Positions 19,402 through 23,604 of a DNA stretch of 64,000 nucleotides are shown piece after piece. The DNA comes from Malacoplasma penetrans HF-2 (GTDB taxonomy: Bacteria > Bacillota_I > Bacilli_A > Mycoplasmatales > Mycoplasmoidaceae). The DNA is taken from assembly GCF_000011225.1 (NCBI RefSeq), contig NC_004432.1, positions 496,001-560,000 on the forward strand, given 5' to 3'. The notes under the pieces are model-generated. The model saw nothing but the letters and a program-made list of their open reading frames with translations. It had not been told where the DNA came from and ran no database searches. How positions within the stretch are numbered: the stretch's first letter is position 1; each line of letters begins with the position of its first letter. The position numbers were made by a program, and so were the translations under genes.

Positions 19402-20268
19402 ATGGCTAAAGAAATGGATTCAAATGTTCAAAATGAAACTGCTAGCAATGCTGAAGAACAAAGCAAAGTAGCAGCAGCAAACCAAGATGATAGTTTAAAC
19501 TTTGAGTATGATAGTGAAGAGTTTAAGAAAAATCTAGAGTTATATTCAAAAATTATTGATAGAAGTGATGATATAGTTGCAACTATTTATAAATTCATGT
19601 ATAAATTCATGAATAAAACATTAGACCCACCTACAAAGGCTGAAATTGATCTTTACCGTAAATCAATTATTATGGCTTTGAAAAAAGGGAACCATAAAAA
19701 ATATGGATACCTATACAAAATCATTGCTAAAAATATTTATGATTACAAAGAACATGTAAGAGATCAAAGTCATAAAGCAAACAATCAAGTAATTATTAAC
19801 CCAAACATCTTTGCGATTTCATGAGATGACTTACAAGCAAATATTAGAGACCGTTTAAGAAACACTGACTCTGATATGCTAACACCTGAAAACTTGGAAA
19901 AAGCTTATAAGGCAGAATTAGATAAAGTTAAAAAACTTTACAACAAATTAAAAGATATGGCAGACAACGGTGTTGAAGTTCCAAGTGATACATTGAATAT
20001 GACTAGAAGTACAATGTTAAAATTAACAGACCTTGTAAATATATTCATGCTAGAAAACTTTGATGAATTACAACCAATGATGCAAGAAATTCAACTGTTT
20101 GAAAAACACCATACTTTTACAGACAGTGCAAACAATTCTATTTTTATAGATGCTAATTTTAAAAATATTACAAACTTATCAGCCCCAATTAAAGATGCTG
20201 ATGCTGCAACAAAAAAATATGTTGATGAACAAATAGAAAAAGTTTTAATTCAACTTAATGCTAAATAA
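19402..20268 (+). CDS. Unknown protein of the MoxR/VWA unit with a phage tail-fibre-like C-terminal motif
   Basis: 288 residues from ATG 19402 (GAGGATT upstream; the in-frame TTG at 19387 was not chosen). The acidic N-terminal 45 residues look disordered. Residues about 60-125 (IYKFM..., DPPTKAEIDLYRKSI, YKIIAKN) resemble the N-terminus of the VWA protein two genes downstream (LYKFV..., NPTKQEFEKFRKELI, PIIKYF). The C-terminal 35 residues contain NITNLSAP and DADAATKKYVDEQIE, a pattern familiar from phage tail fibre/collar proteins, where it precedes a trimeric coil. No signal peptide. With MoxR and VWA partners it may be a client or scaffold of the ATPase; its function is unknown. Confidence 0.85.
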
Positions 20269-20297
20269 TTAGATAACTTATAGTTAGGAGAATGTTA

Positions 20298-22019
20298 ATG
20301 AATAACGATAAATTAAAAAATTTAAGTAATCAAGAAATTGAAAGAATTAAATTAGAAGCAGAAAAAACAAGACAACAAGTTGTTAATGTTATTACTAAGG
20401 TTTCAAGAGATTTAGCTGAGAGAGAAGATGTTCTAAAATTAGCTTTCCTTTGTGCAATGGCTGGAGAATCTATTTTCATGTTAGGACCACCTGGTATTGC
20501 AAAGTCATTAGTTTCAAGAAAAATTGCTGATATATTTAGAGAATCAAACACTTTTGAAGTTCTTATGAACCGTTATAGTACACCAGATGAAATTTTTGGA
20601 CCTATTGATATCATTAGTTTAAAAGAAGGTAAATATGTAAGAAAAACTGAAGGTTATTTACCATCTGCTGAAATTGGTTTCCTTGATGAAATTTGAAAGG
20701 CATCTTCATCTATTCAAAATGCCTTACTGATGATTATTAATGAAAAAATCTTTATTAATGATGGTAAACCAGTTAGAGTTCCACTAGCTTTATTAATTGC
20801 AGCATCTAATGAGTTGCCTGAAAGAAATAAAGGGTTGGAAGCTCTTTGAGACCGTTTCATTATTAGAGTTGATATGAAACCAATTCAAGCTGAAGACAAA
20901 CTTTTAAAATTAATTGATAACCCTGTTAACATCTTAGATCAACAAGAATTAACAGAAGATGAAAAGTTTGATTTATCTTACTTACAAAAAGTTGCTAAAA
21001 ACACTTACCATGTAGAAATTCCTAAGAATGTTAAGAAATTCATTTCTTTATTAAGAAAGAAAATTAATGAATTCAATAACAAAGTTAGAGAAACTAACCA
21101 AAATCCAAATGACTTTGACTTAATCTATGTTTCTGACCGTAAATGAAAAAAGATTGGATCATTACTTAGAACTTCAGCTTACTTAAACGGTAGAATGTAT
21201 GTTGATGTAACTGACTGTTTCATTTTAGAAAATGTTATTTGAAACAATACTACTCAAATTCCTGGAATTCAAAAAATGATTAATGATACAGCAGCTTCTA
21301 TTGAATATGGTATTGATGGAAGATATTCATATGCTACTGAATCATTCAATAAAATAAGAGAAACAATTATTGATAACATTGCAATTCATGAAAAGAAAGC
21401 AAATGTAATTATCAAATCTTATCGTAACAAACAAAGTGTTTTCTATTACTTCATGGATGGAGAAAAGAACAAATACTTCTTCAAAAAAGAAGATATTGAT
21501 AATATTCCTAAAAATGATAACTTTGAAATCATGGACTGAATGGTTAACTACTGTACTGCTGAAGAATTCAAAACAAGTACTCCACCTTCAAGACGTGCAT
21601 TAATTAAATATGATGGAACAAACTTCTATGTTTATAAAGATGCAAATGAAAATGCTGAAAAGATCAAAATTTATACTAATTTTGAAGAAAAAGAAGTTGA
21701 CCACTATAGATTAGTTAGACCAACAGTTGATTTCATTAAAGATATCAAAAATACAGCTACAACTCTAATTAATAGAATTAACTTAGATATTGATGGATTA
21801 AAAATATTAAGAGAAAAGAGATTTGATGGAGTAACAGCAAATAATATATTTGTTGAAAACAAAGATTTAGGTTTCTTAAAACATACAATTGAAGACTCTA
21901 TCGAAAAACTTGAAGACATTGTTGATAAAACAAAAGACATGTTTGTTTACATCAAGTTAATCAACTATGGATTCACTACTAAAGATAAAGATAAAATTCT
22001 ACCAACATTAAATAGTTAA
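20298..22019 (+). CDS. MoxR-type AAA+ ATPase, RavA-like
   Basis: 573 residues. Walker A is GPPGIAKS (residues 63-70), Walker B is IGFLDEIWKA (about 127-136), followed by AASNELPE (sensor 1) and EALWDRFIIR (arginine-finger region). The strings LMNRYSTPDEIFGP and FLDEIWKA match the RavA subgroup of MoxR proteins. After the AAA+ core (about 1-300) a further 270 residues form a C-terminal extension, as in RavA. Such ATPases act as chaperones with a VWA partner, here encoded next door. I chose ATG 20298 (AGGAG spaced 7 nt) over ATG 20292 (1 nt). There are 29 nt to the gene upstream and 66 nt to the VWA gene. Confidence 0.92.
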
Positions 22020-22085
22020 TTTATATTAACTATTTATTTTATTAATATAACAATTACCAAAATTGAGATTACTTAGGATGTGACT

Positions 22086-23546
22086 ATGTTAAAACAAGCA
22101 AATATAATAACTGAATTAGTTAATCTTTTAGAAAACAGTCAAACAACTGCTTTAAAACTTTATAAATTTGTAAATGGTGAAGGAACTAATCCTACTAAAC
22201 AAGAATTTGAGAAGTTTAGAAAAGAATTAATTAATTCAATTAAAAGAAAAAAAGAGAATGCATTACAATTATTTCCAATTATTAAATACTTTGAATCTAA
22301 CAGATTGTCAGAAGAAGATTTACAAAATGATGGAACATTATTTACAGTGCCATCAGATGAAAAAATTGCAATTGCTTCTCCAATTGAAGTTTTAGAAGAA
22401 TTTCCTCAACCAGAAGACTATGATTTAAGTATTCTATGAGATTTATCTTCAATTGAAGAAAGAGAAACTCAATTATTTAAAGCTGTTGAAAACTATTTTA
22501 ATCTTGTAAAGGATGATGAAAACCTAAAGAAATTCATTAGAATGATTGGGACATTCATGCAAGAGAATTTAGAAATTGAAAAAAATGAAAAAGAATTGTT
22601 CTTAGAAAACATCCCTCAAGAAACTTTTGCTTTATATCAAAGTAGTGACTTAAATAACTTAATTCCTAATGAAATTGCACAATTAGATGATCCTGAATTA
22701 GAAATTATCTTTTTAAAAAATTTCATTGAACAAAAATTATTAACTTACCAATTGTGAGGAATTGAAAGAGAAATCCAAGAAGAATGAGTAATTAAACAAA
22801 GAGATATTGGTGAAAGAGGTCCTTTATTTATTTGTTTAGATACTTCAGGTTCAATGAGAAACATGAAAGAAGTACTTTCAAAAGCATTAACTTTAGTGTT
22901 TGTTAGAGAACTTGAAAAAATGGATATTAATGTTGTATTTATACCATTCTCTATGGAAGCTAAGTTCTATGATTTATATGACAGTAAGTTCAAATTAAAA
23001 TCTGTAAAAATGAATTTAAGAAAATCATTCTATGGTGGATCAGATATTGAAAAGCTAGTTGATTTAATAGATTCAGTAATTTACAAGAAAAAATATGAAA
23101 GAGCAAACATTTTAATAATGTCTGACTTCATCTTTAAAAAACTTCCAAAAAAAGCTGTTAATAAACTTAAGAAGTTAAAACACAATGGTCACAAACTACA
23201 CTCACTAACAATTAGTGATCAAATTTATAAAAACAATCTATTTGATATTTTTAATACTAACTGAAGATATACATTTAATTGAAAAACTGATGATGGTTCA
23301 ATTGAAGAAGAATTTATTAATGAACTTTCAGAAGCTTCAACAATGAGTGCTGAAGTTATGAATACAATCCAGTCATTTGGTATTATTAACTTAATTAAGA
23401 GTCATGATAAAGCTGAAGAAAATGCTCAGAATTTAGCTGAAGCATTAAACAGAAAATTAAGAGGAGAAGATGTTGCAACTAGTCCTATTGTAAATAGTTC
23501 TACAACTGCTCCTGATGAAGATGATTTTGAATCAGCAGATAACTAA
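22086..23546 (+). CDS. VWA domain protein, ViaA-like partner of the MoxR ATPase
   Basis: 486 residues. The MIDAS motif DTSGSM starts at Asp252 in FICLDTSGSM, followed by GGSD (a Ser at the third MIDAS position, often Thr) and LIMSDF. The N-terminal 250 residues are helical, as in ViaA-type proteins, and their start shares a pattern with the first gene of the operon (YKF...PTKxE...RKELI...IIK). Acidic tail. Start 22086 was chosen because AGGA is 7 nt upstream, whereas GTG 22080 would be too close. VWA proteins bind metal-dependent partners and act with MoxR ATPases in complex assembly. The biological target is unknown. A strong terminator follows. Confidence 0.9.
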
Positions 23547-23561
23547 GTAATTTTATATTGT

Positions 23562-23604
23562 TAAAATCACAAGAATAATTTTATATATTCTTGTGATTTT
23601 TTAC
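23562..23604 (+). terminator. Intrinsic terminator of the MoxR/VWA unit
   Basis: AAAATCACAAGAATA and TATTCTTGTGATTTT form a 15-bp stem followed by a T run. Confidence 0.9.

Follow-up and report, generated by a model that had tools for sequence, protein, structure and literature searches.

Three genes on the plus strand at positions 19402-23546 of the window, the stretch of 64,000 nucleotides from the Malacoplasma penetrans HF-2 genome (1,358,633 bp, one contig) analysed in this work, encode under genetic code 4 a protein of 288 aa termed P0001 (19402..20268, +), a RavA-subfamily MoxR AAA+ ATPase of 575 aa (P0002; 20292..22019, +), and a ViaA-like VWA protein of 486 aa (P0003; 22086..23546, +). 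The P0001 and MoxR genes are separated by about 23-29 bp, the ATG at 20298 being a likelier start of the MoxR gene than 20292 because of the Shine-Dalgarno position and the ends of the homologues, and the MoxR and VWA genes by 66 bp. An intrinsic-terminator-like hairpin with a T-run (23563..23602, +) lies 3' of the VWA gene; its AT-rich 15-bp stem (23563-23600) leads into the T-run and has a folding energy of -16.5 kcal/mol (z = -7.25), and it is absent from the list of the consensus scanner. A weaker AT-rich hairpin over the MoxR stop codon (22010-22035) has no significance against shuffled sequences (z = -1.25). These gaps and the single stable hairpin agree with the initial annotation, which described a tightly spaced three-gene unit with one strong terminator.

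The ATPase P0002 matches the NCBIfam RavA profile NF010054 (E 5.9e-75, residues 30-332), the Pfam bpMoxR family (2.8e-52), the solved RavA structures in PDB (2e-60), and Salmonella RavA (hhalign 1.2e-55, 39% identity), and the RavA-type AAA+ module and lid are present within residues ~30-332. In the RavA comparison, P0002 has no match past residue ~330, and the part of RavA past residue ~307, which holds LARA, is left unmatched; by eye, residues 340-575 of P0002 look helical with a beta-rich insert. P0003 matches the ViaA profile from residue ~103 on (4.4e-44), exceeds the family cut-off of PF05762, and contains a VWA domain (22818..23213, +) with an intact DTSGSM MIDAS motif that is invariant across its family. 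The ViaA-specific N-terminal region was not found in P0003: the alignment begins at residue 114 of P0003 and residue 180 of ViaA, no counterpart of ViaA residues 1-179 could be detected, and P0003 differs over its first ~110 residues. Since neither protein attains the curated equivalog cut-off (253 bits vs 681 for RavA and 151.5 bits vs 500 for ViaA), P0002 and P0003 are classified by sequence as RavA-like and ViaA-like, not as RavA and ViaA proper.

Homologs of P0001 with near-full-length support are encoded in 12 of 298 genomes of the order, namely every one of the ten genus members sampled, Mycoplasmoides fastidiosum (G120), and G032, which belongs to a different family; among 346 sampled genomes of the wider class, P0001 was detected in the window genome and G032 only. 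The closest named relatives of the trio are from Malacoplasma. Each of the 12 P0001-encoding genomes keeps the P0001, MoxR and VWA genes adjacent and in the same order, and between genera P0001 is conserved at approximately the level of MoxR and above that of the VWA protein. The proposal that P0001 is a third component of the system is supported by these observations, which also provide the suggested check for conservation of the trio elsewhere. In other sampled mollicutes the MoxR-VWA pair alone is common and occurs with no P0001, and the MoxR tree contains a branch with 100/99 support that parts the MoxRs of trios from those of pairs. The trio MoxRs of G032 and G120 (L060, L059) cluster together in this tree (100/99), contrary to their family assignment, which hints that the trio has moved between families.

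Several individual loci deserve mention. One member of the genus (G099) has a separate canonical MoxR-VWA pair in addition to the trio (L070:5868-8936), in the G032 trio the VWA gene carries a frameshift, genuine or due to an assembly error, and was used uncorrected (L065:4506-5865), and the MoxR of G146 is located on a very long tree branch and has no recognised VWA neighbour (L069:7080-8792). A fourth conserved gene was considered and rejected, as the ORFs of ~620 aa that precede three of the trios are mutually unrelated by eye (a topoisomerase, an oligopeptidase-like protein, and a hypothetical protein). Likewise, no hidden third component was recognized upstream of the Spiroplasma-type pairs, where the genes by eye resemble those for small membrane proteins or helicases. 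Two 'phage' contigs with MoxR-VWA genes (MT837553, MT839506) appear to be pieces of bacterial DNA, and no P0001 was seen in them, and the search of Moorella phage MTATph1, which has a MoxR gene with a neighbour, gave no P0001-like gene.

The stretch in which P0003 departs from both ViaA and the VWA proteins of other mollicutes is occupied by a helical domain of ~60 residues (residues 9-67; 22110..22286, +), located at the position of the ViaA N-terminus, which is shared with residues 46-109 of P0001 (19537..19728, +). Such a common domain had been proposed from inspection of the sequence; its existence was confirmed by profile comparison, while its limits, first placed at about residues 60-125 of P0001 and 1-75 of the VWA protein, differ slightly. 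The two single proteins are matched by BLASTP (1e-4), and hhalign of the separately aligned P0001 and VWA families, which the initial annotation had named as a check, gives a significant match both for full profiles (E 3.7e-6) and for the domains (2e-9), with an observed score of 49.8 compared with a maximum of 20.6 across 200 column shuffles. The P0001 family has no match to canonical mollicute VWA proteins (E 0.29), to Salmonella ViaA (E 0.79), or to the MoxR of the trio itself (E 0.39), and the shared domain was detected neither in ViaA nor in the VWA proteins of other mollicutes. A whole-genome search with the P0001 domain of a homologue, which lacks the local duplication described below, retrieved P0001 (1e-45), the VWA gene (0.0028), and one weak match (0.098) at genome position 185546; the latter is an unrelated coiled-coil-rich ORF and not a credible third copy. 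AF2 models of P0001 and P0003, run separately and of low overall confidence (pLDDT 54.9 and 51.1), have the same helix-helix-loop(N..P(T/S)K)-helix-helix layout in this region, with moderate confidence there. Within the P0001 domain, the window strain alone has a perfect 12-bp tandem duplication (19588..19611, +), which adds a second YKFM (YKFMYKFM) and is missing in all 11 homologues.

We regard residues 46-109 of P0001 and 9-67 of P0003 as homologous on the basis of these alignments, and consider it highly improbable that lysine-rich helices, encoded by an AT-rich genome, resemble each other here by chance. The domain is short and biased in composition, and in G120 and G032 it is undetectable between P0001 and the VWA protein alone: their VWA proteins are too diverged from P0001 for direct recognition (E 0.16-0.28) and are recognised only via the VWA proteins of the genus. 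Against chance stand the shuffle control, the negative profile controls, and the whole-genome ranking, and the P0001 proteins of G120 and G032 still match the VWA proteins of the genus with an E-value of 7.3e-5.

P0001 as a whole has nothing above noise in Pfam, NCBIfam, and PADLOC. It consists of a probably disordered N-tail, the shared helical domain, long helices, and, at residues ~246-287 (20137..20262, +), a neck of the phage tail-fibre/tail-spike type followed by a C-terminal helix. This neck, unnoticed in the initial annotation, is the most informative feature of the protein. It bears the segment NITNLxxPxxxxDAATKxYVDEQIE, and PHROG tail families (1640, 6518, and 2710) are matched by all 11 P0001 homologues (best 3.8e-6). 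In PDB it is matched best by spikes and fibres of phage tails (9m4c, 9m4d, 23sh; E 0.015-0.026), followed by a trimeric autotransporter adhesin (0.085); the neck is short (~30-40 residues) and the individual E-values are modest. The chains of the matched PDB entries are deposited in multiples of three, and from the phage-fibre neck we predict that P0001 is a homotrimer. The phage matches are limited to residues ~220-280 of P0001, with no tail-attachment or receptor-binding parts detected. The neighbours of P0001 are not phage genes, and no relatives of P0001 were found in viral contigs. A prophage origin of the trio was rejected because the unit is single-copy and fixed in the genus and has no viral-contig relative. 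The neck motif itself occurs only once in this genome. Another mollicute (G004) contains multicopy prophage-like ORFs with repeated necks of the DAATKxYVD type (L044, L045).

We tentatively interpret the trio as a three-part variant of the RavA-ViaA protein-remodelling machine, in which P0001 would be a trimeric adaptor or a built-in client that docks in the manner of the N-domain of the VWA protein. The N-terminal NTV region of E. coli ViaA, comprising 319 residues, suffices for RavA binding (PMC9489729), and the N-domain of NorD docks on the small helical subdomain of the NorQ ATPase (PMC13036017). The shared domain falls in the part of P0003 that corresponds to NTV, and it is plausible, by analogy with these systems, that P0001 docks through the same domain as the VWA protein. 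The neck would trimerise P0001 and thereby display three copies of the domain, and P0001 and the VWA protein would engage the ATPase complex via equivalent domains, the docking site most likely being the helical lid of MoxR, as for the NorD N-domain on NorQ. If the shared domain does the job of NTV or of the NorD N-domain, the VWA protein and the P0001 trimer could share one MoxR hexamer by binding to its different subunits, and the ATPase together with the VWA protein would pull on P0001 as a resident client or adaptor. The shared domain may also lie outside the ATPase contact, because NTV is large and its RavA-binding patch has not been mapped onto the replaced segment. Of the E. coli RavA-ViaA partners, the NuoF and LdcI families were not found in this genome, and the FrdA-type FAD domain is represented by fragments of 33-36 residues only; P0001 would thus be the obvious local candidate for an adaptor or client, with the reservation that this list of clients derives from E. 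coli work. P0001 could then stand in for the respiratory and LdcI partners of the E. coli system. The initial description of P0001 as a substrate-mimic found no support. A more specific and quite uncertain extension of the adaptor/client reading is a RavA-ViaA lineage with a dedicated trimeric P0001, a relative of the VWA N-domain fused to a phage-fibre neck, by which a three-fold protein would be coupled to the six-fold AAA+ motor as its permanent third subunit.

Other roles of P0001 were weighed against the same data. The shared domain might self-associate, so that P0001 pairs directly with the VWA protein, which alone touches the ATPase, and P0001 serves as a cargo handle. We consider this arrangement possible and somewhat doubtful. 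Homologous domains of neighbouring proteins commonly form homo- or heterodimers, and of the three proteins the outer two alone carry the domain. E. coli ViaA is dimeric, a point in favor of such pairing, whereas its isolated NTV is monomeric (PMC9489729). It is rather unlikely that P0001 is purely a substrate, namely a trimeric and possibly filament-forming structural protein whose assembly is driven by MoxR-VWA. Its phage-fibre neck and helical body, the position of its gene at the start of the unit, and the virus ATV, for which an interaction of the RavA-subfamily ATPase p618 with the filament-forming p892 is cited in PMC3893208, are consistent with such a role; however, secretion signs or membrane segments are not apparent in P0001 by eye, and a domain in common with the VWA partner fits an integral component better. 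The three-gene MoxR/VWA layout and the Pfam bpMoxR match would also suit a conflict (defence) role of the kind that Kaur et al. (2020) described for MoxR-vWA ternary systems, in which P0001 would act as the effector or the sensor, but we give this reading very little probability, as VMAP, iSTAND, FtsH, propeller, and effector domains were all undetected, PADLOC gave no match, and the trio has a single fixed architecture throughout the genus instead of a variable one.

The substrates of RavA-ViaA-type machines are still under debate. A small genome in which NuoF and LdcI were not found offers a co-conserved gene with the domain of the VWA partner, and hence a testable adaptor or client, within a compact three-protein system that is suited to reconstitution. 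The trio would also represent the reuse of a predicted phage-fibre trimerisation module in an apparently cytoplasmic chaperone system.

Phage tail fibres and spikes have in common with P0001 the NxxxPxxxxDAATKxYVD segment running into a helix, a piece of only ~35 residues, whereas no phage match covers the remainder of P0001. Among the open-licence papers searched, none was found to describe a comparable third protein for RavA-ViaA; the initial statement that no third component was known for RavA/ViaA agrees with these papers, but MoxR-vWA ternary systems with other third components have been described (PMC7159879, Kaur et al. 2020). These combine MoxR and vWA with a third component, as the trio does, but theirs is VMAP, iSTAND, FtsH, or a propeller, none of which was detected here. 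In the NorQ-NorD system, likened to the trio from the literature, a MoxR ATPase likewise has a VWA partner, and the N-domain of this partner binds the ATPase at its helical subdomain, but there are two components only. The two-gene MoxR-VWA pairs of other mollicutes have a homologous core and a similarly tight arrangement, and differ in the lack of P0001, in the different and longer N-terminus of their VWA proteins, and in the separate position of their MoxRs in the tree. RavA-ViaA of E. coli and Salmonella shares with the trio the RavA-subfamily AAA+ module, the order of the ATPase and VWA genes, and the C-terminal three quarters of ViaA including the MIDAS VWA domain, whereas the trio has an extra gene upstream and the shared domain in place of the region of ViaA residues 1-179.
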